Positions 10,933 through 43,606 of a stretch of DNA of 64,000 bases are shown here, piece by piece. Within the stretch, counting starts at the first letter, position 1. Each line of letters begins with the position of its first letter. Made by a program: the position numbers and the translations under genes. Where the stretch lies: positions 6,411,501 through 6,475,500 of the forward strand of contig NZ_JACHMH010000001.1 in the NCBI RefSeq assembly GCF_014204915.1, written 5' to 3'. A model generated the notes under the pieces. That model did not search any database, had not been told where the DNA came from, and was given only the letters and a program-made list of their open reading frames with translations. Origin of the DNA: Crossiella cryophila (GTDB taxonomy: Bacteria > Actinomycetota > Actinomycetes > Mycobacteriales > Pseudonocardiaceae).

Positions 10933-11823
10933 GTGCAACACCTGGAGTTCGCCTGGTTCGAGGTCACCGGAAAATGCCAGCTTGAGTGCGAGCACTGCTA
11001 CGCCGACTCCGGCCCGAAGGGCACCAACGGCACCATGCGCCCCGCCGACTGGACCCGCGTGATCAACGAAGTCGCCCAGCTCGGCGCGAGAATGATCCAG
11101 TTCATCGGAGGGGAACCGGCGCTGTACCCCGGGCTGCCCGAGCTGGTGAACCACGCCCGCGACCACGGGCTGGAGGTGGAGGTCTTCTCTAACCTGGTGC
11201 ACGTGCCGCCGCAGCTCTGGAACGTCCTCACCCAACCCGGCGTGCGCCTGGCCACCAGCTACTACTCCGACCAGCCGGATGAACACGCCGCGATCACCCG
11301 CCGACGCGGCAGCCACGCGCGAACGAAGTCCGACATCATCGAAGCCCTGCGCCGCTCGATCCCGCTCCGCGTCGGGTTGATCGACGTACAGGACGGCCAG
11401 CGGGTCGAGCAGGCCCGCGCCGAACTCACCGAGCTGGGCGTCACCGACATCGGTGTGGACCACCTGCGGCAGGTTGGCCGCGGCGTCCGGGACCGCACCC
11501 CGAGCATGGACCAGCTCTGCGGCCGCTGCGCCCGCGGACAGGTCGCCATCGCCCCGGACGGGTCGGTGTGGCCGTGCGTGTTCTCCCGGTGGATGCCGGT
11601 GGGCAACGTCAGGATGAACAGCCTCGCCGACATCCTCACCAGCTCGGCCATGGCCGGCACCGCCCAGACCTTGGAGGACCACTTCGCCACCCGGGGCGCC
11701 TCGGGGTTGTGCGATCCGCAATGCGGTCCGAGCTGCGGACCGGCCTGTCTGCCCCACTGCTGGCCCACCGGCAACGGGCCGTGCACGCCCAAGGGCGGCT
11801 GCCAACCCAACTACGATGCCTAG
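10933..11823 (+). CDS. radical SAM/SPASM-like protein
   Basis: A 296-aa protein. CQLECEHC (residues ~15-22) is the CxxxCxxC motif that binds the SAM-cleaving [4Fe-4S] cluster. FIGGEPALYP (~57-66) is the GGE strand that contacts SAM. The C-terminal half has LCGRCARGQVAIAPDGSVWPC, as in SPASM/twitch auxiliary-cluster domains. A dense Cys-rich tail follows (residues 261-292, eight Cys separated by Gly/Pro), richer than a normal SPASM domain. GTG 10933 has GGGAG six bases upstream. The gene overlaps or abuts the ATPase gene. A peptide or small-molecule substrate is unknown. Confidence 0.8.
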   Translation: MQHLEFAWFEVTGKCQLECEHCYADSGPKGTNGTMRPADWTRVINEVAQLGARMIQFIGGEPALYPGLPELVNHARDHGLEVEVFSNLVHVPPQLWNVLTQPGVRLATSYYSDQPDEHAAITRRRGSHARTKSDIIEALRRSIPLRVGLIDVQDGQRVEQARAELTELGVTDIGVDHLRQVGRGVRDRTPSMDQLCGRCARGQVAIAPDGSVWPCVFSRWMPVGNVRMNSLADILTSSAMAGTAQTLEDHFATRGASGLCDPQCGPSCGPACLPHCWPTGNGPCTPKGGCQPNYDA

Positions 11824-27953: not shown

Positions 27954-30842
27954 TCAGGACGTGGCGATCGCGGGTGGCTGGGTTTCCCTGGCCCGGCCGG
28001 CGCCCAGGTGCAGGATGGCCAGGTGGTGGCGGGCGCCGGCTTGGCTTTGGGGGTCGTCGGCGGCGGTGAAGTAGGTCAGGGCCTGGATGTGGTGGCGGTG
28101 GGCGGCGACCGGATCGCCTGCCTGGCGGTGGCTGTCGCCGAGCAGGCGCAGGGTGGTGGCCTGGCCTAGTTGGTCGCCGAGCGCTCGATAACCGGCCAGG
28201 GCCTCGGTGAGGGTGGTGATGGCCGGCTGGTGTTCGCCGGCGTCGGCACGGAGCCTGCCCAGTGCGGTGAGGGTGTGTGCCTGGCCGAGCTGGTTGCCGA
28301 GGGCGCGGTAGGCGCGCTGGGCGCGGTCCAGGTCGGCCGCGGCGCCGGGGTGGTCGCCGCGGTGGTGGTGCAGGATTCCTTGGTGCAGCTGGGTGTGCGC
28401 CAGGCCGAGTCTGTTGTTGAGCAGTAGGTAGCCGCGGTGGGCGGCGGCCAGGTGGGTGGCCGCGGTGTCGTGCTCGCCGGTGTGGATGTGCAGCACGCCG
28501 AGTTCGGCGCGGGCGCCTGCCTCGCCGCGGAGGTGGCCGAGGGCGCGGTAGCTCGCCAGGGCCTCGCCGAGGTCGCGTAGCGCGCCCGGGTAGTCGCCGG
28601 TGAGTCTGTGCAACGAGCCGAGGTGGTGCAGGGCGGCGGCGCGGCCTGCGTCGTCGCCGGTGTGCTGGGCCAGTGCGAGGGCGTTCTGGTGCAGGCTGAT
28701 CGACTGGTACCAGCGGCCTCTGCTGCACAGGTACGGGTGCAGGGCGGTGGTGAGCGCGATGACCAGGGCGGCGTGGCCGCGGGCCTGCGGACTGGTCAGG
28801 CAGGCGGTCAGGCTAGCGCTTTCCCGGTCCAGCCAGGCCAGTGCGCCCGCGTCGGTGTCGATCTCCGCGGCCGGGTCGGGGGCGAATCGGCTGGGCAGGG
28901 CGGGCACGGCCAGCGGCGCGTCGGCGAGCACCCTGGTGCTGATCAGGGCGGTGGTGTGCAGGTAGTACTCCAGCAATCGGCCGAGGGCGGCCTCCCCCGG
29001 TGCGGGGTCCTCGGCTTCGGCCAGGCCGCGGGCGTACTCCCGGACCAGGTCGTGCAGCAGGTAGCGGCCGGGCGCGGATTCGGTGAGCAGGTGGTTGTCG
29101 TAGAGCTGCTCGAGTTCGCGCCGGGTGTCCCTGGGGTCCTGACCGGCCAGCGCGGCGGTGGCCGGGATCTCGATCTCGGTGCCGGGGAACAGGGCCAGGG
29201 TGCGGAACAGCCGTTGCTGCCCGGTGCTCAGGCCGCGGTAGGACAGCTCGAACGCCGCGGTCAGGGTGATGTTCTCCGCGTGCAGCTCACCCAGCATGGT
29301 GCAGGAGGAGGACAACAGGTCCAGCAGGTAACGCAGTGTCCATCGTGGACGGTGCCGCAATCGCCCGGCCAGCAGGGTGATCGCCAGCGGCAGCCGTCCG
29401 CAGCGCGCGGTGAGTTCGGCCAGCGTCGCCGGGTCGGACTCCTGTTCGCGGCCGGCCAGGCGCAGGAAGAGGGTGTCGGCGTCCGCGGCGGGCAACGGAT
29501 GCAGTTCCAGGGTGCACGGGCCTTCCAGCGCGGTCAGCCTGCGGCGGCTGGTGATCAGCACCAGGCAGTGTCCGGGGCCGGGCAGCAGCGGGCGGAGCTG
29601 GTCGTGGCCGGTGGCGTCGTCGAAGACCAGCAGGATCCGCCGCTCGCGCAGGCAGGCCCGCCACAGCGCGGCGCGGGCCTGCAGGCACTCCGGGATCTCC
29701 GGGCCGGGCACGCCGACCGCGGGCAGCAGTTCGGCGAGTGCCTCGTGCGGGTCCATCGGCGGCCGGTCGGTGGCGAACGCGCCCAGCCGCAGCCAGATCT
29801 GGCCGTCCGGGAACTGCTCGGCCACCGCGCGGGCGGCGTGCACGGCGAGCGCGGTCTTGCCGACACCGGGCATGCCGTCGATGGCGACGATCACGCTGTC
29901 CGGCCGGTCCGGATCGGCCGCGACGGCCGCGGCGGCATGCAGTTGCCGCAGTTCGGCGCCGCGGCCGGTGAAGGCGGGCAGCGCGGCGGGCAGCTGCGCG
30001 GGGATGGCCGACGGCGGTGCGGCGGGTGGCCGGGTGGCGGTCCCGGTCACCACCCTGGCCGGGGGCGGACACGGTTCCGGGTCGGCGGCCAGGATGCGTT
30101 GGTGCAGCTCGCGTAGTCGTGGTCCCGGGTCGACGCCGAGGCGGTCGGCCAGGGTGATCCGCGCGTCCTGGTAGGCGGCCAGCGCCTCGGCCTGTCGGCC
30201 TGCCCGGCACAGCGCGAGCATCAGCAGCTCGCGCAACCGTTCCCGCAGCGGGTGCGCGCTGACCAGGCCGGTCAGCTCGGCCACCACCGGCTGGTGCTCA
30301 CCTCGGCCCAGCAGCAGTTCGGCCCACAGCTCGCGCGCGGCCAGCCGGCATTCGGCCAGCCGCAGCCGCTGGGTGTGCAGGTACGGGCTGTCCAGGCCGG
30401 TGAACGGATCCCCGCGCCAGCGGCGCAGCGCCGACTCCACCGCGGTGGCCGCGGCACTCAGGTCCCCCGCCCGCCGGTAGGCCCGCGCCGCCTCCAGTTC
30501 CTGCTCGAAGGCCACCAGGTCCACCTGGGCCGGATCGGCGCGCAGCAGGTAGCCGGCGTCGGTGCGCTGCACCAGGCCGTCCCGGTCCGCGGCCGGATCC
30601 TCGCGCAGGGCCCGGCGCAACCGGCTGATGTTGGTCTGCACGGTGTTGCGCACGCCCTGCGGCGGCGCCTCGCCCCACACCGCGTCGATCAGCGTGCTCA
30701 CCGGCACCGGCCGGTTCAGCTCCAGCAGCAGCACCGCGAGCACGGCCTGCTGCCGGGTCCAGCCCAGATCGATCCGGTGTTCGCCGCGCCAAGCGGCCAC
30801 CGGACCCAGAACGCCGAAGTACAGCGCGGTTCGCGACGACAC
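27954..30842 (-). CDS. SARP/AfsR-type regulator: OmpR-like HTH, BTAD, NB-ARC, TPR
   Basis: A 962-aa regulator. Residues ~5-95 form an OmpR-like winged helix (LRRALRED, GYLLRADPAQVDL) and ~96-250 the BTAD domain. An NB-ARC ATPase follows with Walker A GMPGVGKT (323-330), Walker B LLVFDDAT and GLPLAIT-like LPLAITLLAG. Residues ~650-950 are TPR repeats (ALGNQLGQAHTLTALGRLRADAGEH and similar). AfsR-type SARPs activate secondary-metabolite genes. GTG 30842 is preferred (GGGGGTGG just upstream). The gene is divergent from lanA, so it is the likely pathway activator. Confidence 0.85.
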   Translation of the reverse strand: MSSRTALYFGVLGPVAAWRGEHRIDLGWTRQQAVLAVLLLELNRPVPVSTLIDAVWGEAPPQGVRNTVQTNISRLRRALREDPAADRDGLVQRTDAGYLLRADPAQVDLVAFEQELEAARAYRRAGDLSAAATAVESALRRWRGDPFTGLDSPYLHTQRLRLAECRLAARELWAELLLGRGEHQPVVAELTGLVSAHPLRERLRELLMLALCRAGRQAEALAAYQDARITLADRLGVDPGPRLRELHQRILAADPEPCPPPARVVTGTATRPPAAPPSAIPAQLPAALPAFTGRGAELRQLHAAAAVAADPDRPDSVIVAIDGMPGVGKTALAVHAARAVAEQFPDGQIWLRLGAFATDRPPMDPHEALAELLPAVGVPGPEIPECLQARAALWRACLRERRILLVFDDATGHDQLRPLLPGPGHCLVLITSRRRLTALEGPCTLELHPLPAADADTLFLRLAGREQESDPATLAELTARCGRLPLAITLLAGRLRHRPRWTLRYLLDLLSSSCTMLGELHAENITLTAAFELSYRGLSTGQQRLFRTLALFPGTEIEIPATAALAGQDPRDTRRELEQLYDNHLLTESAPGRYLLHDLVREYARGLAEAEDPAPGEAALGRLLEYYLHTTALISTRVLADAPLAVPALPSRFAPDPAAEIDTDAGALAWLDRESASLTACLTSPQARGHAALVIALTTALHPYLCSRGRWYQSISLHQNALALAQHTGDDAGRAAALHHLGSLHRLTGDYPGALRDLGEALASYRALGHLRGEAGARAELGVLHIHTGEHDTAATHLAAAHRGYLLLNNRLGLAHTQLHQGILHHHRGDHPGAAADLDRAQRAYRALGNQLGQAHTLTALGRLRADAGEHQPAITTLTEALAGYRALGDQLGQATTLRLLGDSHRQAGDPVAAHRHHIQALTYFTAADDPQSQAGARHHLAILHLGAGRARETQPPAIATS

Positions 30843-30939
30843 AGCCACCCCCAGTTTGTGCCCGTGATCACCGCCACCGTAGCCGTGCGGCCCAGTTCTG
30901 GCAGCCGGTCGGCCCCGCTGAACTGCTCGTCCAGTGCGC

Positions 30940-30956
30940 TGACAGGGCCGTGACAG
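30940..30956 (+). promoter_or_regulatory. SARP-type direct repeat upstream of lanA
   Basis: TGACAG occurs at 30940-30945 and again at 30951-30956, exactly one 11-bp helical turn apart, in the divergent region between the SARP gene and lanA. SARP activators bind direct repeats with 11-bp periodicity. A possible -10 (TACGTT, 30999-31004) for lanA has no good -35, as expected for an activator-dependent promoter. Confidence 0.45.
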
Positions 30957-31081
30957 CGCTGTGTACGCGACCGTCAGAACCGCGTACGCCACCGGTTCTA
31001 CGTTGAGCCGAGGCGCTGCGAATGGCGCCGATCCCGCCGGTCGATTCCGGCCGGTGAATTCGCCACAAAGGAGACAAACAA

Positions 31082-31258
31082 ATGGACGCGTTCGATCTGG
31101 ACGTCCGGATCACCACCCCGGCCGGGGCCGACGCCGCTGCCGGGCCGCTGTCGATCATCAGCAGGCTGACCTGCTCGCGCACCCCGATCTGCTCCAAGAC
31201 GACCTGCCAGTGCAGCCGCACCTGCACCCCGCTCTGCACCTCGGGCAGCGTCCGCTGA
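31082..31258 (+). CDS. lanA: class I lanthipeptide precursor peptide
   Basis: A 58-aa peptide with AAAGGAG 8 bp before the ATG. The leader contains FDLDV (residues 4-8), the equivalent of the FNLD box that LanB recognises in nisin and gallidermin. It has no Cys and ends AGPL (20-23), like the AGPA cleavage site of microbisporicin-type precursors. The core from residue 24 would be 35 aa with six Cys (31, 37, 42, 44, 48, 52) and 14 Ser/Thr, and ends TSGSVR. Up to six (methyl)lanthionine rings are possible. The pattern is not that of any lantibiotic I know. lanC and lanB follow directly. The core boundary is inferred. Confidence 0.9.
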   Translation: MDAFDLDVRITTPAGADAAAGPLSIISRLTCSRTPICSKTTCQCSRTCTPLCTSGSVR

Positions 31259-31263
31259 GGAAC

Positions 31264-31298
31264 GGGTGCTGCCGTGTGTGGAAGACACGGCAGCACCC
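31264..31298 (+). terminator. perfect stem-loop between lanA and lanC (attenuator)
   Basis: GGGTGCTGCCGTGT (31264-31277) pairs perfectly with 31285-31298 around a 7-nt loop, 5 bp after the lanA stop. A partial terminator here is the usual way to make more precursor than enzyme. Confidence 0.8.
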
Positions 31299-31342
31299 AC
31301 TCGTCAATTTACCGCATTCAATTCCGGAAAATGGGGGTATTC

Positions 31343-32722
31343 GTGCGCCAGTTGTCCGAGCACGCCGCGGTTGACCAGGGCGCCACGACCGGCCTGGTGC
31401 ACAGCTGGCACGGCACTGTCCCGGCAGAATTGGCAGGCCGGGCCACCGCGGCCGCGCTGGAGGTCGCGCGCCGCAGCGTCGATCCGGAGCGGGTCGTCGA
31501 GCTGGTGATGGCCGCCGCCGACCAGGCCGTGCACCCCAACGGCTGGGCCTATCACGGCTTCGCGCACGGACACGCCGGACTCGCGCTGGTGCAGGTGCTC
31601 GCCGCCGAGGCGACCACCGGGGACGCCGACCGCCGCGCCGCACTGGCGGCCGCGTTCACCTACATCCGGGAGGCGGTGGCCGGTACCGCCGGCACCCCGT
31701 TGACCGAGCCCGGCGTGCTCGCGGGCACCAGCGGACTCGCGCTGGGCCTGGCCGCCTGCGTGCGGGCCGAGCCGCGGTTCGGCCCGAGCCTGGACCGGCT
31801 GCACGAGCAGCTGGCCGCCCAGGTCCTGGAGCTGCCGTTGCCGCGGGTGGAGCGCGGGGTGAGCGATTCCGACTACGACATGGTCAGCGGGGCCGCCGGC
31901 ATCCTGTCCTACCTGTGCGGCATCGAGGAGCCGGGACCGGGCGTGCGCGCCGCGGCCGAGCACCTGATCGACTACCTGGTGTGGCTGGGCGCTCCCCCGC
32001 GCGACCTCACGCTGACCCGCCGCTGGCTGATCAGCCCCGACCTGTGCCAAGGCGAGCGCGACCACCCCAACGGCCACCTCAACGTCGGGCTGGCGCACGG
32101 CATCCCCGGTCCGCTGGCCGCGCTGGCCACCGCCTGGCTGGCCGGTTACCGGCGGCCGGGGCAGGACACCGCGTTGCGCCTGATGCTGGGCTGGGTGCAG
32201 ACCCTGCGCCGCACCGACGAGCACGGCCCGGTCTGGCCCAGCGAGGTGCCCATCGACGACACTGGCGCGGAGACCCGGCCCGGTCAGCCCGAGGACCAGA
32301 TCGCCTGGTGCTACGGCACCGCCGGGGTGGCCGTGGCGCTGCTGCCGGTGGCCGAGGCGCTGGGCGATGACTCGCTGCGCGCGCTGGCGATCGAGTCCTT
32401 CGAGGCCGTGCTCGGCCGCTTCGCCGAGCGCCCGGTGCGCTCCCCCACCTTCTGCCACGGCATCGCCGGACTGCTGGTGCTGTGCCTGGAGTTCGCCGCG
32501 CACGGCAGCCAGCTCGCCGCCGCCTGGACGCCCCGGTTGCTGGAGTCGCTGCTGGCCCAGGCCGATCCGGAGCTGCCGGTGCTGTTCCGCGACCAGGAGA
32601 AGCCCGGCGTCTTCGTGGACAGCCCCTCGCTGCTGTCCGGGTCGGCCGGGATCGCGCTGGCCCTGCTGGCCGCGACCGCGCCGCGCCGTCCGTCCTGGTT
32701 CCGCGCCTTCCTCACGAGGTGA
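31343..32722 (+). CDS. lanC: lanthionine synthetase LanC (cyclase)
   Basis: About 459 aa. The alpha/alpha-barrel LanC repeats are visible (HGHAGLALVQVL, VLAGTSGLALGLAAC, SGAAGILSYLCG, GLAHGIPGPLAALA). The zinc ligands sit in WCYGTAGVAVALL (Cys) and FCHGIAGLL (Cys-His), as in NisC. It catalyses Michael addition of Cys thiols to dehydroamino acids in LanA. GTG 31343 is chosen because GGGGG lies 5 bp upstream; ATG 31331 is the alternative. lanB starts 8 bp after it. Confidence 0.9.
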   Translation: MRQLSEHAAVDQGATTGLVHSWHGTVPAELAGRATAAALEVARRSVDPERVVELVMAAADQAVHPNGWAYHGFAHGHAGLALVQVLAAEATTGDADRRAALAAAFTYIREAVAGTAGTPLTEPGVLAGTSGLALGLAACVRAEPRFGPSLDRLHEQLAAQVLELPLPRVERGVSDSDYDMVSGAAGILSYLCGIEEPGPGVRAAAEHLIDYLVWLGAPPRDLTLTRRWLISPDLCQGERDHPNGHLNVGLAHGIPGPLAALATAWLAGYRRPGQDTALRLMLGWVQTLRRTDEHGPVWPSEVPIDDTGAETRPGQPEDQIAWCYGTAGVAVALLPVAEALGDDSLRALAIESFEAVLGRFAERPVRSPTFCHGIAGLLVLCLEFAAHGSQLAAAWTPRLLESLLAQADPELPVLFRDQEKPGVFVDSPSLLSGSAGIALALLAATAPRRPSWFRAFLTR

Positions 32723-32729
32723 GCCCCCG

Positions 32730-35700
32730 ATGACCGAGTCCCGTTACCGCGCGACCGACTTCTACCTGGTGCGCGCGCCCGCACTGCCCGCGGAGACCTT
32801 CCGCGAACTGCTGGCGGGCGAGGGCACCGACGAACAGCGCCGCGACCTGGCCTGGACCCGGCTGCGCGAGCTGGCCGCGACGCCGGGGGTGCGCCGGGCG
32901 CTGTCGGTGGCCAGCACCGATCTGCTGGACGCGCTGGACCGGCTCGGCCCCGACGGCTCCGGCAAGAAGAGCAGGCGGGCGCACTCCCGGCTGCTGCGCT
33001 ACCTGACCAGGATGTCCACCCGCCCCACCCCGTTCGGCGCCTTCTCCGGCATCGCGCTGGGTGAGTTCGGCGAGCACACCACGCTGCGGCTCGGGGCGCC
33101 CGCGGTGCACCAGGCCAGGGTGCGGGCCGACATGGGCTGGCTGCTGGCGCTGATCAAGGACCTGGAGCAGGATCCGGGGCTGCGTCCGCATCTGCGGCTG
33201 GTCCGCAACGCCGCCGCGCACCTGAGCGGGGACCGGCTGATCCTGCCCTACGCCGACATCTACGGCAGCGGCGACAACCGCAGCGTGCGGGTGCGGGCCA
33301 CGCCCGCGGTCACCGCGGTGCTGCGGCTGGCCGCCACCCCGACCCCGGCCGACGCGCTGGTGGCCGGACTCGCCCAGGAGTTCCCCGAGGTGGCCGCGGA
33401 CCGGGTCGCCGGGCTGGTGGAACAGTTGCGGGAACTGAACTTCCTGATCAGCGACCTGCGCCCGCCGCAGTCCAGTCCGTTCCCGGAACAGCACGTGGCC
33501 AAGCGGCTCACCGGGATCGAGGCGGCCACGGCCACCGGCGAGGCGCTGCGGGAGATCATCGACCTGACCCACCGGGCCGCCGCCTCGACCGATACCGCGC
33601 CGCTGCGGGAGTTGCGGGCCGCCCAGCGGGCGCTGGTGCCCGGCCACGACAGCGACACCTTCCAGCTGGACTCCACGCTGGACCTGCGGGAGTCCGGGCT
33701 CGGCCGCGCGGTCGGGCAGGCGGTGGCCGAGGCGGTGGACTGCCTGATGCGGCTGGCCGCCGCGCTGCCGGGACACAACCACCACCTGGTGCAGTACCGG
33801 GACGCCTTCGTCGAACGCTACGGCGACCAGGCCCTGGTGCCGGTGCTGGAGGTGCTCAGTCCGGACACCGGCCTGGACGCGCCGTACAACTACCTCGAAC
33901 CACCGAGGGCCACCCCGGTGCCGCACAACACCCCTGAACCGTCCACAGTGGACTACGACCGGCTGCTGACCGAGTTCGCCGCGCAGGCCTGGTGGTCCGG
34001 TGCGGTCTCGGTGGAACTCACCGACGCCTGGCTGGACCGGATCGCCCCGGCCACCGGGAAGTCCGCGCTGGGCCTCTATCCCGCGCTGGACGTCTACGCC
34101 CAGCTCCAGCTCACCGACCAGGACAGCCGGGTGGACGACGGGCGGTGGCGGCTGGTGCTGCGCGAACTCAGCCTGGCCTACGGCGGGCGCACCGCGGGGC
34201 GCTTCTTCGACCTGCTCGGCGAGGACGCCCTGGACCACCTGCGCGAGCACACCCGCCGGATGACGAGCCTGCAACCCGAGGCGGTGCACGCCGAACTGTG
34301 CTTCCTGCCCACCAGCGGACGGGCGGCCAACGTGGCGTTCCGGCCGTTGCTGCACGAGTACGAGGTGCCGGTCAACGCCACCCCATCGGCCCGGTCCGAA
34401 CGCACCATCAGCCTGGCCGATCTGCATGTCGGGGTGGCCGGGAACCGGTTCTACCTGTGGTCGCGCACCCTGGGCCGGGAGGTGGTGGTCTCGCAGGGGC
34501 ACATGCTCGGCCCGCACCTGGGTCCCAACGCGGCCCGGTTCGTGCTGGAGGTCTCCCAGGACGGCTACGCCATGCCCACCGGATTCCGCTGGGGTCCCTT
34601 GGAGGACCTGCCGTTCCTGCCCAGGGTCACCCGCGGCAACGTGGTGCTGCGGCCCGCCCAGTGGACGCTGCGCGGCGCGGATGTCACCGGGGATTTCCCG
34701 GCCGCCCTCGCCGAATGGCGGCAGCGCTGGCGGGTGCCGCGGTATGTCTACCTGGTGGATGAGGACAACCGGCTGCTGCTGGACCTGGACCATCCGCTGG
34801 GCCTGGACGAGCTGGCCGGTGACTTCCGGGACGGGCAGGGTCAGGCGGTGCTGCACGAGATGCTGCCGGCCTTCGACGACCTTTGGCTGTCCGATGTGGA
34901 CGGTGCCAAGTACCTGGAGGAGATCGTGGTGCCGCTGGTGGCACATTCGGCCGCGGACACCGCGCGCAGCCCGGTGCCGCTTTCCGGCAGGCTGGAGTCG
35001 ATCACCGAGGTCGGCGCCAGCCGCAGCCTGCGGCGACGGCATCTGCCCGGTGAGGAATGGGCCTACCTCAAGGTGTACGCCGCCTTCAACCGGCACGATG
35101 AGATCATCGCCGGTGGACTGCGCGAGCACATCGCGGCCCTGCGCGCACAGGGTCTGATCGACCGCTGGTTCTACCTGAGGTACGCCGATCCGCAGCCACA
35201 CCTGCGGATCCGCTGCCGGGCGGCCGATCCGGACGCGGCCACCGAGGTGCTGCACCGGCTGATGGCCTGGGGCCGCGAGGTGGTGGCGAGCGATCTGGCC
35301 TTCGACACCGGGGTGGCCACCTACCTGCCGGAGATCGAGCGCTACGGCGGACCGCGGACCTTCGAGGCGGTGGAGGACCTGTTCACCGTCAACAGCGATG
35401 TCACCGCCGACCTCGTCGCCCTGTTGCAGGAGAAAGAACCCAAGCTGCGCCCCGATTTCGTGGCCATCGCCACGGTGGACACGCTGTACCGGCAGTGGGG
35501 CCTGGCGCCGCGGGAGCGGCCGGCGCTGATCCCGCCGGTGACCGAGACCGAGGCGGTGCGCAAGGAGTTCCACGCCCACCGCGACTACCTGGGCGAACTG
35601 GTGCTGCCCTGGGACTTCCGACCGCACGAGGAAGGCCGGGCGCACCACGAGTTGATCAACGAGATCCTCGCCCCGCAGGCCGGCGCGGTGGCCGCGGCCG

Positions 35701-35897
35701 CGGCGGCGGTGCGCGCGGCGATCGACGGGGACACCTTGTGGGGCACCGAGGCCACCGTGCTCGGCAGCCTGGCGCACATGCAGATCAACCGGTTGCTGCC
35801 GGTGGACCTGCTGCGGGAGCAGCACTGCTACGCGCTGTGGCGGCACATCCTGCGCGCGGTCGGCGGTCGCCCGGCGCACCTCCGGAAGGAGTCCTGA
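32730..35897 (+). CDS. lanB: lantibiotic dehydratase LanB, full length
   Basis: A 1055-aa protein, the normal size of a single-chain class I LanB. The glutamylation domain shows the family motif RMSTRPTPFGAFSG near residue 90 and continues to about 770. The C-terminal ~280 residues (WAYLKVYAAFNRHDEII, WFYLRYADPQPHLRIRCR, EIERYGG) form the elimination/SpaB-C domain. The enzyme uses Glu-tRNA to glutamylate Ser/Thr and then eliminates Glu to form Dha/Dhb. ATG 32730 lies 8 bp after lanC with GAGGTGAG upstream. A long open frame on the other strand is a shadow. Confidence 0.95.
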   Translation: MTESRYRATDFYLVRAPALPAETFRELLAGEGTDEQRRDLAWTRLRELAATPGVRRALSVASTDLLDALDRLGPDGSGKKSRRAHSRLLRYLTRMSTRPTPFGAFSGIALGEFGEHTTLRLGAPAVHQARVRADMGWLLALIKDLEQDPGLRPHLRLVRNAAAHLSGDRLILPYADIYGSGDNRSVRVRATPAVTAVLRLAATPTPADALVAGLAQEFPEVAADRVAGLVEQLRELNFLISDLRPPQSSPFPEQHVAKRLTGIEAATATGEALREIIDLTHRAAASTDTAPLRELRAAQRALVPGHDSDTFQLDSTLDLRESGLGRAVGQAVAEAVDCLMRLAAALPGHNHHLVQYRDAFVERYGDQALVPVLEVLSPDTGLDAPYNYLEPPRATPVPHNTPEPSTVDYDRLLTEFAAQAWWSGAVSVELTDAWLDRIAPATGKSALGLYPALDVYAQLQLTDQDSRVDDGRWRLVLRELSLAYGGRTAGRFFDLLGEDALDHLREHTRRMTSLQPEAVHAELCFLPTSGRAANVAFRPLLHEYEVPVNATPSARSERTISLADLHVGVAGNRFYLWSRTLGREVVVSQGHMLGPHLGPNAARFVLEVSQDGYAMPTGFRWGPLEDLPFLPRVTRGNVVLRPAQWTLRGADVTGDFPAALAEWRQRWRVPRYVYLVDEDNRLLLDLDHPLGLDELAGDFRDGQGQAVLHEMLPAFDDLWLSDVDGAKYLEEIVVPLVAHSAADTARSPVPLSGRLESITEVGASRSLRRRHLPGEEWAYLKVYAAFNRHDEIIAGGLREHIAALRAQGLIDRWFYLRYADPQPHLRIRCRAADPDAATEVLHRLMAWGREVVASDLAFDTGVATYLPEIERYGGPRTFEAVEDLFTVNSDVTADLVALLQEKEPKLRPDFVAIATVDTLYRQWGLAPRERPALIPPVTETEAVRKEFHAHRDYLGELVLPWDFRPHEEGRAHHELINEILAPQAGAVAAAAAAVRAAIDGDTLWGTEATVLGSLAHMQINRLLPVDLLREQHCYALWRHILRAVGGRPAHLRKES

Positions 35898-35898
35898 G

Positions 35899-37734
35899 AT
35901 GCCGACGGCGAGCAAGAAACGGGTGCGGGACAACGATTGGCTGCGCATCGCGGCGATGCTGTGGCGGCTGAGTCCGGTGCGGGTGAGCGCGCTGATCCTG
36001 GTCACCTTCGCGGTGTCGGTGGTGCCCGCGGTGCAGTTGCAGCTCACCGCGAGCGCGGTGCAGTCGGTGGCCGACGCGGTCGCCGCGGGCGGCGCCGACG
36101 GGTTCACCGGGCGGATCCTGGTGGTGGGCCTGCTGATCGCGGGGGTCAGCGTGGCCGCGCACCTGTTCGGGGTGTGGCACCAGTACCTGGACTCGGTGCT
36201 GCGCCTGCACCTGGCCACCGCGGTCGGCGAGCAGGTGATGCGCAAGGGCACCCGGATGGACCTGCAGGACTACGAGAACCCCGAGTCCTACGACAAGCTG
36301 CAGCGGGCCTTCCAGGAGAGCAGTGGGTCCAACATCCACCAGCTCTTCGCCGACACGCTCTCCTTCGCCCGCGAGCTGATCACCATCGTGTCGGTCTCCG
36401 CGGTGCTGTTCTCCTGGCACCCGTGGATCGCGCTGCTGATCCTGCTCGCGCCGATCCCCTCGGCGCTGGCGCAGATGTGGTACGGCAAGAAGATGTACGA
36501 GATCGAGTACGACCGGGCCGCGGACCGGCGGCGGCTGTTGTACTTCCAGTACCTCACCACCACCGACCACACCTTCAAGGAAGTCCGGCTGTTCCAGCTC
36601 GGCGACTTCTTCATCGGGCGCTACCGGGAACTCGTGCAGCGCTTCCTCAAGGTGGACCGCTCGCTCAACCGCAGGCAGTCGCTGGCCTTCGGACTGCTCG
36701 GCATGATCAGCGTGCTGGCCGCCGGCGCGGCGCTGATCTACGCGATGCTGGCCACCACGCGCACCGGCGAGATCGGTCAGCTCGCCGGCTACCTGCAGGC
36801 CATCGGTGTGGTGCAGGGATCGGGGCACGCGCTGCTGGTCGGGCTGGCCATGCTGTTGCAGAACAAGCTGTTCGTGAGCAACCTGTTCGAGCTGCTCGAC
36901 CTGCCGGAGCGGCAGATCCGCGGCGGGCAACGGAAATTCCCGGCCAAGCTGCGTACCGGCATCGAGTTCCGGGAGGTCAGCTTCACCTATCCCGGCACCA
37001 CCGAGCAGGTCCTCGATCGGGTCAGTTTCACCCTGCCAGCCGGGAACTGCGTGGCGCTGGTCGGGCAGAACGGGGCCGGCAAGACCACCCTGGTGAAGCT
37101 GCTGACCCGGCTGTACGAGCCGACCGGCGGGGAGATCCTGATCGACGGGGTGCCGATCCAGGAGTACGACCTGACCGAGCTGCGCGGCAACCTGGGGGTG
37201 ATCTTCCAGGACTACATCCGGTACGAGATGAGCGTGCGGCACAACATCGGCTTCGGCGCGGTGGAACAACTGGCGGACACCGGCCGGGTCCGGGCAGCCG
37301 CCGAGGCCAGTGGCGCCGACTCCATTGTGGACACTCTGCCGGACGGTTACGACGCCATGCTGGGCCGCCACTTCGAGAACGGCAGTCAGCTCTCCGGCGG
37401 GCAGTGGCAGAAGGTCGCGCTGGCGCGGGCGTTCATGCGGGGCGCGCCGGTGGTGGTGCTGGACGAGCCGACCGCGTCCATCGACGCCGAGGCCGAGGCG
37501 GAGATCTTCGGGCGCTTCCGCACCATCGCCAGCACCTCGACGAGTTTGCTGGTGGCGCACCGGTTCTCCACCGTGCGGATCGCGGACCGGATCATCGTGA
37601 TCGAGGGCGGCAGGCTGATCGAACAGGGCACCCACTCCGAGTTGATGCGCCAGGACGGGCACTACGCCTACCTGTTCAACCTGCAGGCCGCCGGGTACCA
37701 GCCAGAACCGGCCACCGAGGCGGTCCGGCCCTGA
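35899..37734 (+). CDS. lanT: lanthipeptide ABC exporter LanT
   Basis: A 611-aa half-transporter. An N-terminal membrane domain of six segments (about 30-330) is fused to an ATPase with Walker A GQNGAGKTT, signature LSGGQWQKVALARA, Walker B VVVLDEPTASID and H-loop LVAHRFS. There is no N-terminal C39 peptidase domain, so it exports but cannot cut the leader, as usual for class I LanT. The ATG follows the lanB stop by 1 bp. Its stop overlaps the LLM gene by one base (TGATG). Confidence 0.9.
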   Translation: MPTASKKRVRDNDWLRIAAMLWRLSPVRVSALILVTFAVSVVPAVQLQLTASAVQSVADAVAAGGADGFTGRILVVGLLIAGVSVAAHLFGVWHQYLDSVLRLHLATAVGEQVMRKGTRMDLQDYENPESYDKLQRAFQESSGSNIHQLFADTLSFARELITIVSVSAVLFSWHPWIALLILLAPIPSALAQMWYGKKMYEIEYDRAADRRRLLYFQYLTTTDHTFKEVRLFQLGDFFIGRYRELVQRFLKVDRSLNRRQSLAFGLLGMISVLAAGAALIYAMLATTRTGEIGQLAGYLQAIGVVQGSGHALLVGLAMLLQNKLFVSNLFELLDLPERQIRGGQRKFPAKLRTGIEFREVSFTYPGTTEQVLDRVSFTLPAGNCVALVGQNGAGKTTLVKLLTRLYEPTGGEILIDGVPIQEYDLTELRGNLGVIFQDYIRYEMSVRHNIGFGAVEQLADTGRVRAAAEASGADSIVDTLPDGYDAMLGRHFENGSQLSGGQWQKVALARAFMRGAPVVVLDEPTASIDAEAEAEIFGRFRTIASTSTSLLVAHRFSTVRIADRIIVIEGGRLIEQGTHSELMRQDGHYAYLFNLQAAGYQPEPATEAVRP

Positions 37735-38693
37735 TGAGGATCTCGCTGATGGTGCCGGTCATGCCGCACGAACCCGAACATCTGCCCGCCTACGCCCAGC
37801 TGCTGCTCGACTCCGGCGCGCACCGGCTGTGGCAGGGCCAGTCGCTGGCCGTGGAGACCTTCCAGGGCTTCGCCTACCTGGCCGGGCAGGGCCTGCGGGT
37901 GCCGGTCGGCACCAGTGTCACCCTCACCGCCCTGCGCCACCCCTACGAGACGGCGCTCCAGGCCCGTTCACTGGCCCGGTTGACCGGTCATGATCTGGTG
38001 CTGGGCCTGGGCACCGGCACCCCGGAACTGGTGGCCGCACTGCGCGGGCGGCCTTACGGCAGTCCGCTGACCGCGGCCCGCGACCAGCTCACCATCCTGC
38101 GCGGCCTCCTGGACGGCAAGCCGGTGCAACACGACGGCCGCTACGACTCGATGCACGGCGGGCTGCCGGAGTTCGAGCATCCGCCGGTGTCCCTGGGACT
38201 GGGGGTGTTGCGGCCCGGCATGGCCAGGGTGGCAGGCGAGCTGGCCGATGCCGCGATCACCTGGCTCACCCCGCCGTCCTACCTGGGCGAGGTGCTGGTG
38301 CCGGAGTTGCGGGCCGCGGCCGGGGCGGCAGGCCGGGCGGTGCCGAGAGTGGTGACGGTGGTGCAGGTCGCGGTGCGGCGGCCCGGCCGGGATCCACACC
38401 TGGTGGCGTTGAACGGATCCCGCGAGCACCTGGCCGCCCCGCACTACACGGACATGTTGCGGCAGGCCGGATTGCGGGTGCACCCCTCGCAGGTGCCGCT
38501 GAGCGCGCGGGCCCTGGTGCACTCGGGAACCTTCGTGACCGGCACCCTGGAGGAGATCGCCGAGGGCCTGGACCGGTACCGGGCGGCCGGGGTGGACGAG
38601 GTGGTGCTCAACACCGCCGGCGTGCACCTGACCGAGGGCCGGGCCGCGGCCCTGGCAGACCTGGGGGAACTGCTCCCCGCCCTGGCCGGATGA
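37734..38693 (+). CDS. luciferase-like (LLM) oxidoreductase, candidate lanthipeptide reductase
   Basis: A 319-aa TIM-barrel LLM-family protein (VGTSVTLTALRHPYETALQARSLARLTGHDLVLGLGTGTPE, LLDGKPVQHDGRYD, GVDEVVLNTAGVH). The family uses FMN or F420. It is translationally coupled to lanT, so it probably acts on the peptide. The known F420-dependent reductase LxmJ of lexapeptide (LanJ-C class), of the same superfamily, reduces Dha to D-Ala. The same role here is inference; oxidative tailoring is the alternative. Confidence 0.7.
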   Translation: MRISLMVPVMPHEPEHLPAYAQLLLDSGAHRLWQGQSLAVETFQGFAYLAGQGLRVPVGTSVTLTALRHPYETALQARSLARLTGHDLVLGLGTGTPELVAALRGRPYGSPLTAARDQLTILRGLLDGKPVQHDGRYDSMHGGLPEFEHPPVSLGLGVLRPGMARVAGELADAAITWLTPPSYLGEVLVPELRAAAGAAGRAVPRVVTVVQVAVRRPGRDPHLVALNGSREHLAAPHYTDMLRQAGLRVHPSQVPLSARALVHSGTFVTGTLEEIAEGLDRYRAAGVDEVVLNTAGVHLTEGRAAALADLGELLPALAG

Positions 38694-39440
38694 TCAGCGT
38701 GCGTCGGCGGTGCGCACGGTCAGGATCCGGACCAGGCGGTCACCGGGGTGCGGGTCGCGGCCGTGCCAGCAACGGTAGTTGTCCACCACCAGGATCTCCC
38801 CGGCGACAGGCCGGAATCGGGGCAGGCCGGGCTGGATCTGTTGCACCGCCTCGGTGAAGACCGCCAGCATCCGGTCGGCGTGCTCGGCGCCCGGGTCGCG
38901 GTGCAGGGGCACGGCGCCGTCGGTGCGGCGGACGATCCGGCGGCCGGTGCGGGTGTACTCGACGTGCCGGGCCACCCTGGGCAACGCGGGCACGCCGCGG
39001 ATGGCGCCCCACTTGCCGTAGAGGTCCACGTCCACGTCGGTGAGGAACTCGCGCAGCTCGGGGGTGGCGTGCTCGTCGACGAAGCGGTAGGCGTCGGCGA
39101 GGAAGGAGTCACCGCCGGTGAGGGATGGCTCAACGCATTGCACGAACACGAAATCCTCATCCGGATCGCGGCGCGGGGTGGGGATGCCCGCGAGGTCCAC
39201 GGTCAGGTTGAAGCTGTCCGCGTGCAGGTCCACCGGGCCGCCGTCCCGGCTCGCGCGTTCGCGCAGCGGGAAGAGCTGGCGCAGGCGGGGGCCGAGGACA
39301 CTGGCGGCCGCGACGACCAGGGCGTCCGCGGTGGCGGGCAGGCCGGTGAGCAGGACCGCGCCGTCTGCGGCCAGGGCCGTCCGGGCGTCGGCCACCGCGG
39401 TGGCGTCGTGGCGTTGCGGCACAAGGCCGAGCGCGGTCAT
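38694..39440 (-). CDS. Fe(II)/2-oxoglutarate oxygenase, clavaminate-synthase/TauD-like
   Basis: A 248-aa protein with LHADSFN (His-x-Asp metal ligands, residues ~74-80), CWHGRDPHPG (distal His) and RILTVR (2-oxoglutarate Arg) near the C-terminus. This is the double-stranded beta-helix pattern of clavaminate-synthase-like hydroxylases. ATG 39440 overlaps the MFS stop (ATGA). It converges with the LLM gene with no gap (38693/38694). It may hydroxylate an amino acid for a metallophore or tailor the lanthipeptide; the operon with an exporter opposite a siderophore-type importer favours the first. Confidence 0.75.
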   Translation of the reverse strand: MTALGLVPQRHDATAVADARTALAADGAVLLTGLPATADALVVAAASVLGPRLRQLFPLRERASRDGGPVDLHADSFNLTVDLAGIPTPRRDPDEDFVFVQCVEPSLTGGDSFLADAYRFVDEHATPELREFLTDVDVDLYGKWGAIRGVPALPRVARHVEYTRTGRRIVRRTDGAVPLHRDPGAEHADRMLAVFTEAVQQIQPGLPRFRPVAGEILVVDNYRCWHGRDPHPGDRLVRILTVRTADAR

Positions 39441-40723: not shown

Positions 40724-41713
40724 TTGTTCCACCGCGCCCGCCTGGGTTGCGCACTCGCCGCCGCGGTCGCGGTGGCCTCCTGCGCTACTCCCGCCAACGA
40801 CCCGGCCGCAGGTCAGGCCCCGGTCACCGTGTCCAGCTGCGGGCAGCAGCTGCGCTTCGAACGCGCCCCGCAACGGGCGGTGACGCTGGAGCAGTCCTCC
40901 ACCGAGACGCTGCTCGCGCTGGGCCTTGGCGAGCGGATGGCGGGCACGGCCTACCGGGCCGGGAAGATCCTGCCCGAGTACCAGGCCGCCTACGACAAGG
41001 TGCCGGTGCTCAACGCCAAGGCGCTCAGCGGCGAGCAGCTGCGGGCGGCCGCGCCGGACCTGGTGGTGAGTTCCTTCGCCAGCAACTTCACCAAGGACAA
41101 GGTGGGCACCCGGCCGGAGTTGCAGGCGCTGGGACTCCCTTCCTATGTCAGCGCGGTGGACTGCCCGGAGCACGAGCCGGGCCTGACCCCGTTCGAGCGG
41201 TTGTTCCGGGACTACGAGAACTACGGCAAGGTCTTCGGGGTGGCCGACCGGGCAGCCGCGCTGATCGCCCAGCAGCGCGAGGTGCTCAAGAAGGCCGGGG
41301 AGGTGCGCGCGGGGCGCAGTGGCAAGCCGACCGTGGTGTACCTGTACTCGGTGTTCAAGGGCCTGCCCTATGTCGCAGGGCACAACGGGATGCCGAGCGA
41401 CATGAGCCGGATCCTGGGCGCCCCCAACGCTTTCGACGACATCAACGAGGATTGGCCGGAGATCTCCTGGGAGGAGATCGTCAAGCGCGATCCCACGGTG
41501 ATCGTGGTCGGCGATCTCTCCGACCGCGGCGCGCCGGGTGACAGCTCCGCGGAGAAGATCAAGATGATGCGGGAGCACCCGGTGGTGTCCCAGCTGACCG
41601 CGGTGCGGCAGAACCGGATCATCGACGTGCCCGGCATCGAACTCGACCCGACCGTGCGCAGTGCGAACACGCTGCGGCTGGTGGGCGAGGGGCTGAAGGC
41701 GCTCGGTGTCTGA
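40724..41713 (+). CDS. metallophore ABC transporter substrate-binding lipoprotein (FecB/BtuF-like)
   Basis: A 329-aa lipoprotein with lipobox VASC (Cys ~22) and a class III periplasmic-binding fold (QRAVTLEQSSTETLLALGLGERMAGTAY, LRAAAPDLVVSS, DPTVIVVGDLSD). The start is TTG 40724, five bases after GGAGG; no ATG or GTG fits. The adjacent permease and ATPase complete the importer. Some members of this group are catalogued as 'F420-0 ABC transporters'; with a Zur-like box, a zinc- or metal-chelate ligand is more likely. This is inference. Confidence 0.8.
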   Translation: MFHRARLGCALAAAVAVASCATPANDPAAGQAPVTVSSCGQQLRFERAPQRAVTLEQSSTETLLALGLGERMAGTAYRAGKILPEYQAAYDKVPVLNAKALSGEQLRAAAPDLVVSSFASNFTKDKVGTRPELQALGLPSYVSAVDCPEHEPGLTPFERLFRDYENYGKVFGVADRAAALIAQQREVLKKAGEVRAGRSGKPTVVYLYSVFKGLPYVAGHNGMPSDMSRILGAPNAFDDINEDWPEISWEEIVKRDPTVIVVGDLSDRGAPGDSSAEKIKMMREHPVVSQLTAVRQNRIIDVPGIELDPTVRSANTLRLVGEGLKALGV

Positions 41714-42791
41714 ACCTGACCTGCTGCACCCCGCCTCCCGCTCCCGCCCGGAACCAGCACTCCCCCGGCCGCGGGGCCGGTCGGGCTGGTCCACCACCGC
41801 GGTGTTCCTGCTCGGGCTCGCGGTGCTGATCGTCTCGATGGGGCTGGCGGTCCGGATCGGGGTCAGCGGGGTGGGTTTCGGCGAGATCGGGCGGTCCCTG
41901 GGCGTACGGCTCGGGCTGCCGGTGCAGCCACTCCCCCGGCTGCTGGACTCGCTGATCTGGGAGTTGCGGTTCCCCAGGGTGCTGCTGGCCGCGCTGGTCG
42001 GCGCGGTGCTGGCGGTGTGCGGGGCCGCGTTGCAGGGTGTGACCCGCAACGCGCTGGCCGATCCGTACCTGCTGGGTGTGTCCAACGGGGCCTCCGCCGG
42101 TGCGGTGACCGTGGTCGTGCTGGGCTTCGGCGCCGGCGCGCTCGGGGTGACCGGTGGCGCGCTCGTGGGTGCGTTGCTGTCCTTCGGGTTGATGCTGTTG
42201 TTGTTGCGCCGCAGTGGGATGCACCCGGTGCGGATCGTGCTGACCGGGGTGCTGGTCGGGCAGCTGTTCGCCGCGATCACCTCGCTGATCCTGATGGCCT
42301 CCGCCGATGCCGACACCACCAGGGCGATCACCTACTGGCTGCTGGGGTCGATGGCCTCGGCGCGCTGGGACGCGGTGCTGATCTGCGGCATCGCCTGGGT
42401 GATCGGGATGGTGGTGATCTGGTTGTGCGCCACCGCGTTGGACGGCTTCTCCTTCGGTTCGGACACCGCGGCCTCGCTGGGGGTGAACGTGCGCACCACC
42501 CGCCTGGTGCTGCTGGTGGCCACCGCGTTGCTGACCTCGGTGGCGGTGGCCTCGGTGGGCGCGATCGGCTTCGTCGGCCTGATCGTGCCGCACGGGGTGC
42601 GGTTCCTGGTCGGGCCGACGCACCGGGTGCTGTTGCCGGTGACCGCGGTGGCCGGCGCGGTGTTCCTGGTCTGGACCGACGCGCTGGCCCGGATCGCCTT
42701 CGCACCGAGGGAGGTGCCGGTGGGGGTGTTCACCGCACTGGTCGGCGTGCCACTGTTCCTGCTGGTGCTGCGCAGGCGGGGTGAGCTGTGA
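41706..42791 (+). CDS. FecCD-family metallophore ABC permease
   Basis: A 361-aa protein with about nine or ten hydrophobic segments and family motifs ELRFPRVLLAALVGAVLAVCGAALQGVTRNALADPYLLGVSNGAS and GFVGLIVPH (ATPase-contact and late motif; shown in pieces here). GTG 41706 overlaps the end of the lipoprotein gene by 8 bp. A homodimer of this protein would form the channel with the ATPase encoded next. Confidence 0.85.
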   Translation: MSEPDLLHPASRSRPEPALPRPRGRSGWSTTAVFLLGLAVLIVSMGLAVRIGVSGVGFGEIGRSLGVRLGLPVQPLPRLLDSLIWELRFPRVLLAALVGAVLAVCGAALQGVTRNALADPYLLGVSNGASAGAVTVVVLGFGAGALGVTGGALVGALLSFGLMLLLLRRSGMHPVRIVLTGVLVGQLFAAITSLILMASADADTTRAITYWLLGSMASARWDAVLICGIAWVIGMVVIWLCATALDGFSFGSDTAASLGVNVRTTRLVLLVATALLTSVAVASVGAIGFVGLIVPHGVRFLVGPTHRVLLPVTAVAGAVFLVWTDALARIAFAPREVPVGVFTALVGVPLFLLVLRRRGEL

Positions 42792-43606
42792 GGATCGGCG
42801 TGCACTCGGTGTCATGGTCGGTACCTGGCAAGTCCATTGTGGACAACGTGGACTTCACCGTCCACTCCGGACGGACGGTCGGCCTGATCGGGCCCAACGG
42901 TTCGGGCAAATCCTCGCTGTTGCGCTGCGTGGCCGGGCTGCGCAAGCCCACCGCCGGTGTGATCCGCTTCGACGGCAACGACATCGACGGCTGGACACCG
43001 CGGAAGATCGCCCAGCACCTGGCCTTCGTGGAGCAGGCCGGGGACACCGACAGCGATCTGCGGGTGGCCGAGGTGGTGGCGCTGGGCCGCACCCCGTTCC
43101 GGCCGGGCTGGCGGGCGCCGGGCGGAAACGATCACGCGATCGTCGAGGCCGCGCTGGAACGCCTGGACCTCACCGAGTTGCGGGACCGGCACTGGCAGAC
43201 CCTCTCCGGCGGCGAACGGCAGCGTGCGCACATCGCGCGGGCGCTGGCCCAGCAGCCGTGGGCGATCCTGCTCGACGAGCCGACCAACCACCTCGACATC
43301 CGGCACCAGCTCGAACTCCTGGACCTGTTGGCGCGCACCGAACAGACCGTGCTGGTCGCCCTGCACGACCTGTCCCTGGCGGCCCGCTTCTGCGACCGGC
43401 TCGTGCTGCTGCACCAGGGAGAACTGGTCGCGACCGGAGCACCGGGCGAGGTGCTGACCGCGCGGCTGCTGCGCGAGGTCTTCGAGGTGGACGCGGAGGT
43501 CGGGCAGGACAGCGCGGGCAACCTGGCCGTGGTCTACCGGGGCACCGCCGAGCGGGTCAGTCCGGTTGGCGTGGCACCAGCAGGCCCCGGTGGAACGCCT
43601 CGGTGA
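42788..43606 (+). CDS. metallophore ABC transporter ATPase (FecE-like)
   Basis: A 272-aa ATPase with Walker A GPNGSGKSS, Q-loop VEQAG, signature LSGGERQRAHIARAL, Walker B ILLDEPTNHLD and switch LVALHDLSL, the order and spacing of FecE/FhuC. GTG 42788 overlaps the permease stop (GTGA). The last ~17 codons overlap the convergent response-regulator gene by 50 bp, an unusually long antisense overlap. Confidence 0.9.
   Translation: MRIGVHSVSWSVPGKSIVDNVDFTVHSGRTVGLIGPNGSGKSSLLRCVAGLRKPTAGVIRFDGNDIDGWTPRKIAQHLAFVEQAGDTDSDLRVAEVVALGRTPFRPGWRAPGGNDHAIVEAALERLDLTELRDRHWQTLSGGERQRAHIARALAQQPWAILLDEPTNHLDIRHQLELLDLLARTEQTVLVALHDLSLAARFCDRLVLLHQGELVATGAPGEVLTARLLREVFEVDAEVGQDSAGNLAVVYRGTAERVSPVGVAPAGPGGTPR

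Follow-up and report, generated by a model that had tools for sequence, protein, structure and literature searches.

A Crossiella class I lanthipeptide cluster with a predicted LanJC-type reductase

The closest described relatives of the locus analysed here, a five-gene cassette in a 64,000-nucleotide stretch of the Crossiella cryophila genome (hereafter the window), are the FDLD class I lanthipeptides of NCBIfam family NF038155, the maddinglicin system, nisin and, for the last gene, the LanJC enzymes of several clusters for ribosomally synthesised and post-translationally modified peptides (RiPPs). The cassette, located in a single-contig genome of 10.06 Mb, encodes a precursor (LanA), a cyclase (LanC), a full-length dehydratase (LanB), an ABC exporter (LanT) and a probable F420-type oxidoreductase of the LLM/luciferase superfamily (hereafter the LLM). 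We give a probability of roughly 0.7 to the explanation as a whole, namely that this is a complete Crossiella class I lanthipeptide cluster into which a reductase has been recruited. Judged by sequence, the FDLD class I cluster itself appears ordinary in kind, and the unusual part would be its combination with a LanJC-type enzyme.

LanJC enzymes, a group of LLM proteins reported to depend on F420H2, convert dehydroalanine (Dha) to D-Ala, as in the class II lanthipeptide birimositide (PMC7268733; this and all other papers are cited for the accessible parts of their text). Another acts in the class V lanthipeptide lexapeptide, where the conversion of Dha to D-Ala raises potency (PMC8498797), and reduction has been predicted for the LanKC/LanJC pairs of daptide clusters (PMC10036551). 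According to a 2024 paper LanJ chemistry is limited and found mainly in class II and in a single class V lanthipeptide (PMC11519912), and a 2020 survey suggested that it may also exist in class I (PMC7268733). An NADPH-dependent enzyme, FltJA, comes from a lanthipeptide cluster of Flavobacterium terrae, whose class is not stated in the accessible part of the source. Our literature search did not turn up any account of a LanJC acting within a class I pathway; many subscription papers lay outside that search, so this is not proof of absence.

The window shares with NF038155 the FDLD leader box, an actinobacterial host and the presence of LanB and LanC, but its precursor has a 35-residue core with six Cys arranged as SxxxC, SR, TPxC, SxxTCxC, SxxC and TPxC, lacks CTPGC by the first ring motif, and is accompanied by an LLM gene in the operon. 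Some NF038155 matches in the same bacterial family have cores that we take to resemble planosporicin or microbisporicin. The solved LanB and LanC closest in sequence are those of maddinglicin (MadB and MadC; PDB 9g04, 8byk), which also has an FDLD leader; that system differs in its Clostridium host and its precursor, and no LLM is mentioned in the accessible part of its description. The LLM resembles the LanJC enzymes (LxmJ of class V lexapeptide, the class II birimositide enzyme and the daptide LanKC/LanJC pairs) in being encoded in a RiPP cluster, and its own clade mates are found in clusters of class V, class II and daptide type; it differs in accompanying LanB and LanC, the class I enzymes.

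With nisin the core shares the ring motifs SxxxC and TPxC and a TCxC pair able to form intertwined rings, but two extra residues stand between the first and second ring motifs and the third ring is one residue longer. Nisin carries the motif TxTCxC, and its last two rings interlock, as those of the SxxTCxC pair would. The lipid II motif of nisin and gallidermin, SxxxCTP(G/S)C (PMC7268733), is absent from the core, which has SRLTC-SR-TPIC and SRTC-TPLC instead. The original prediction, made from the DNA letters, had called the Cys pattern unlike that of nisin; the pattern does lack the lipid II motif but keeps the nisin-like pieces SxxxC, TPxC and SxxTCxC.

Precursor and biosynthetic enzymes

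The lanA gene (31082-31258, plus strand) encodes the 58-residue peptide MDAFDLDVRITTPAGADAAAGPLSIISRLTCSRTPICSKTTCQCSRTCTPLCTSGSVR, with a leader of about residues 1-23, the FDLD box at residues 4-7 and a core of about residues 24-58, and is preceded by the ribosome binding site AAAGGAG (31067-31073, plus strand), 8 nt 5' of its ATG. The core, which follows GPL and would be released by cleavage after PL, contains six Cys, 14 Ser/Thr, five Arg/Lys and no acidic residue. Against NF038155, the 'FDLD family class I lanthipeptide' model, LanA scored 23.1 bits (cut-off 20). The small reading frame, its ribosome site, the FDLD box and the Cys- and Ser/Thr-rich core had all been proposed before, and sequence, conservation and the NF038155 score now bear them out.

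The same gene order, with a divergent SARP regulator gene followed by lanA, lanC, lanB, lanT and the LLM gene, was found in 10 loci of five Crossiella genomes, where the SARP gene always adjoins lanA and the LLM gene always comes directly after lanT. These loci are the window, L028, L029 and L032 (type A) and L030, L031, L034, L035, L033 and L154 (type B and variants); the stretch read for L031 ends within lanT and its LLM was placed separately at G188:C1:3957057, and L152 and L153 were left out of the count, being taken as the S99.2 and SN42 loci again. Three other genomes of the genus encode the peptide at 91, 91 and 86% identity, the two at 91% being Crossiella sp. S99.2 and SN42. Synonymous and non-synonymous codon differences from the window lanA number 13/5 in SN42, 8/8 in G188 and 4/5 in S99.2, so constraint is clear in one of the three comparisons and the picture is mixed. 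That lanA is a chance reading frame could nevertheless be ruled out, since peptide and position are kept in all 10 loci. A second full cluster in the genome of the window (L030) encodes another precursor, 62% identical to this one.

Much of the core differs between type A and type B precursors, but all 10 share a skeleton consisting of S-[IVL]-[IV]-[ST]-[RK]-[LF]-x-C, [ST]-[RK]-TPxC, SxxTCxC, [ST]-x(2-4)-C and TxxC. This pattern was derived from the same 10 sequences and is thus a description, not a test; the motifs SxxxC, TPxC and SxxTCxC had been noted before the G185 precursor, which fits them with Thr replacing the first Ser. The G188 orthologue has a seventh Cys at a place where the window LanA has Ser. 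On the simplest ring map the predicted thioether bridges would join S27-C31, T34-C37, S38-C42, T41-C44, S45-C48 and T49-C52. Outside this map, the position seven residues ahead of the first Cys (S24 in the window) is Ser in 10/10 precursors, making it a natural candidate for reduction. The residue after the invariant PL is Ser in every one.

Of 390 genomes from the bacterial family, 14 encode precursors matching NF038155, Crossiella accounting for four of the 14, and a genome contig search with the window precursor matched only two Crossiella contigs. The description of the locus as undescribed-looking therefore holds for the core sequence, but not for its kind, given the NF038155 match and the class I lanthipeptide clusters that antiSMASH lists for Crossiella in PMC9415966, the accessible part of which gives no precursor description. 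A sample of 397 genomes of the order gave a single weak match to the type B precursor outside the family (L039; E 6.1e-4, within a 261-residue frame), which we judged spurious on reading its DNA. Neither of two related class I clusters, L036 (weak LanB and LanC) and L037 (LanB, LanC and LanT at 41.5-52%), showed an LLM match within the 16 kb read. L037, from another genus of the family, is a multi-precursor FDLD class I cluster, and the two of its precursors that were printed have three-Cys cores.

The enzyme genes follow on the plus strand, in the tight order originally predicted and now confirmed by Pfam and NCBIfam matches and by the alignment with MadB. lanC (31331-32722; PF05147) probably starts at ATG 31331, GTG 31343 being possible, and its product keeps the WCYG and CHG motifs in alignment with MadC and NisC, so the zinc ligands expected of it (ligands after PMC9889658) are present. 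lanB (32730-35897; PF04738, PF14028, TIGR03891) encodes a glutamylation and an elimination domain; the protein aligns from end to end with MadB (9g04, E 5.7e-81) and along most of its length with MibB and NisB. Of the residues essential in MadB (PMC12241602), LanB matches RxxxRPT, D, D and R in the glutamylation domain and HxRxR and ERYGG, with two elimination-domain Arg; the final His lies past the end of the printed MadB alignment, and the one match to it comes from a weakly aligned part of MibB (0.8 bits). lanT (35899-37734; PF00664 and PF00005, the ABC membrane and ATPase domains) yielded no C39 peptidase domain in the Pfam domain search, so the leader is probably removed by another protein, and the cassette showed no recognisable LanP or immunity gene. 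The ATG of the LLM gene (37734-38693, 319 residues) overlaps the lanT stop codon (TGATGA); a 918-residue open reading frame (ORF) listed there is an over-long frame and was rejected as the gene. All frames from lanA to the LLM gene are intact. The extent first proposed, 31082-38693, fits lanA to the LLM gene, but the divergent SARP gene (27954-30848) belongs to the locus too, and lanB starts at 32730. Among the loci read only S99.2 shares the flanking EndoH and TauD genes, which is why we set the limits of the unit at the SARP and LLM genes. Taken together, a class I lanthipeptide locus whose product would have up to six rings, as the original prediction held, is well supported.

The LLM enzyme and its genomic company

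In sequence and fold comparisons alike, the best matches of the LLM were F420-dependent enzymes, but the fold is also that of FMN enzymes, and FMN monooxygenases are close neighbours. The presence of this gene had been noted at the outset and left uninterpreted, yet it is the most informative part of the locus. Its clade is tight, and of the 39 other members examined, all from outside class I, 27 lie beside a gene for a lanthipeptide dehydratase (LxmK or LanM), seven beside daptide genes alone and five beside neither, against none of the 18 weaker LLM controls. Markers were accepted at E<=1e-6 in the class sample and the controls and at 1e-5 in the family sample. In the class sample L076, which lies near a contig start, and L087 carried no marker, nor did L161, L163 and L164 of the family sample; all five clade members were counted as misses, and five control loci in which no probe matched, the LLM's included (L114, L121, L122, L127 and L129), were kept among the 18. 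The neighbour cluster c7, considered as LanKC, proved to be ClpB and was dropped as a marker.

Only in Crossiella, among the sampled loci, does an LLM of this kind accompany LanB and LanC, and it does so as one clade. In a midpoint-rooted maximum-likelihood tree of 52 rows, nine of the 10 class I LLMs (the L031 row is missing) form one group (97/82) inside the larger clade (97/95, branch 1.19), the exact sister of the class I group being without resolution. The window's genome holds three LLMs of the clade, two of them belonging to its two class I clusters and the third to a class V cluster, and encodes F420 biosynthesis (cofD/fbiA, 398 bits, cut-off 257). The class V cluster (L069, G000:C1:5116500-5136000) contains LxmK, HopA1-like, CypD-like and M16-like genes, and its LLM is 51% identical to that of the window. 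Elsewhere in the family, L155, L157, L158 and L160 are hybrid clusters that combine daptide and class V LxmK/HopA1-like genes with a clade LLM, the dehydratase looking class V. The window also carries, 3 kb from the LLM gene, an ABC importer permease and ATPase (41706-43606) whose best NCBIfam matches, putative F420-0 transporter models, fall below cut-off; this proximity is perhaps due to chance.

Regulatory sequences and neighbouring genes

The SARP/AfsR-like regulator gene (27954-30848, minus strand, probably starting at GTG 30848) is divergent from lanA. By Pfam and NCBIfam matches its product has Trans_reg_C, BTAD, NB-ARC and TPR domains, and it scored 555 bits against SARPRegAfsRStmc, below the equivalog cut-off of 1430. 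Between the two genes lie the direct repeats TGACAGGGCCG, TGACAGCGCTG and TGTACGCGACC, spaced by 11 bp (30940-30972, plus strand), a candidate SARP binding site; 11-bp direct repeats are presumably the pattern of SARP sites. Their core, the box TGACAGCGCTGTGTACGCG (30951-30969, plus strand), is conserved upstream of lanA, unaltered in eight of the 10 loci and altered once in each of the remaining two; the genome holds it exactly twice, once at each class I cluster.

Between lanA and lanC there is a hairpin (31264-31298, plus strand) with a perfect 14-bp stem and a 7-nt loop, a candidate attenuator or processing site. The stem is present in 10/10 loci with 13 of its 14 pairs invariant, while in two sequences the remaining pair is G-C instead of T-A, a compensated change, and an invariant TACCGC stands on the 3' side of the stem; in the genome the stem occurs at two places only, the two class I clusters. 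The fold has a z-score of -3.8. Covariation lends it weak support, as 202 of 500 shuffles yield just as many covarying pairs; what stands out instead is the near-frozen sequence across paralogous clusters. The flanks are more variable than the stem, which is why we think the hairpin functional, most likely limiting read-through or protecting the lanA mRNA. A scan for sigma-70 promoters and T-tailed terminators found nothing, and Rfam gave nothing at gathering score in 30800-38800.

Elsewhere in the window, 10933-11823 encodes a radical SAM protein with a Cys-rich C-terminal part, for which all NCBIfam matches are below cut-off; its neighbours are an oxidoreductase-like ORF without an NCBIfam match and an ABC-ATPase-like ORF.

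Proposed pathway and alternatives

In the pathway that we propose, the SARP would activate the operon by way of the repeats that precede lanA, and the hairpin would probably hold the precursor mRNA in excess over the enzyme mRNA. The FDLD box would dock the precursor on LanB, which would dehydrate core Ser and Thr by tRNA-Glu-dependent glutamylation followed by elimination, and LanC would then close up to six thioether rings, the third and fourth (S38-C42 and T41-C44) being intertwined. Acting as a LanJC with F420H2, the LLM would reduce a spare Dha to D-Ala, with S24 as the best candidate site. D-residues can protect peptides from proteases, an example of which is given in PMC12328550. LanT would export the peptide and an unlinked protease would take off the leader; an antibacterial role for the predicted product is likely. 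The clade neighbourhoods match LanJC settings (class II, class V and daptide), which makes a single recruitment of a LanJC into LanB/LanC the simplest reading. We somewhat favour the fuller version of this scenario, in which the Crossiella LanB/LanC clusters acquired their LanJC in a single event, from a class V, class II or daptide pathway, and would yield class I lanthipeptides with D-Ala (or D-Abu) and up to six or seven thioether rings, at a precursor-to-enzyme ratio set by the conserved hairpin.

The step most open to dispute is the one assigned to the LLM. GarO makes lanthionine sulfoxide in actagardine, and a GarO-like oxygenase in an otherwise unchanged class I cluster would belong to the same superfamily, in which FMN monooxygenases are such close fold neighbours; we consider this unlikely, because F420-dependent enzymes rank first by sequence and fold and because the 27 clade mates beside LxmK or LanM sit in settings with documented reduction of Dha by LanJC. 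The enzyme could also act on another group, either whatever it modifies in daptide clusters that have no recognised dehydratase or an N-terminal oxo group, left when an N-terminal Dha is hydrolysed after leader removal, which it would turn into a lactyl-type cap. The Ser directly after PL in all precursors would suit such a cap, and lactyl caps are made in other class I lanthipeptides by a short-chain dehydrogenase (PMC7268733). Weighing against the reductase is the company of the seven daptide-only clade mates: at the five probed (L070, L073, L075, L078 and L081) no lanthipeptide dehydratase was recognised among 10 ORFs, so the LLM may do other work there, and for this reason we lowered our confidence in the proposed pathway and raised that in a different substrate. 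A different substrate is still quite unlikely, however, as the described LanJC enzymes act on Dha inside peptides and the position of leader cleavage is itself only predicted.

The locus might instead be decaying or silent and yield no mature product. The Ser that stands in the window precursor for the last Cys of G188 would agree with this, as would the lack of a recognised LanP or immunity gene in the cassette, but we judge it very unlikely, with every frame intact and a type A or type B cluster kept in all five Crossiella genomes of the set. As a class I lanthipeptide cluster with a LanJC-type reductase, the locus would offer a concrete, small, five-gene test case for LanJ chemistry in class I, and the paralogous type A and type B clusters within one genome would provide natural variants for mapping the reduced Ser. 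If our reading is true, tailoring enzymes move between lanthipeptide classes that have quite different dehydration chemistry.

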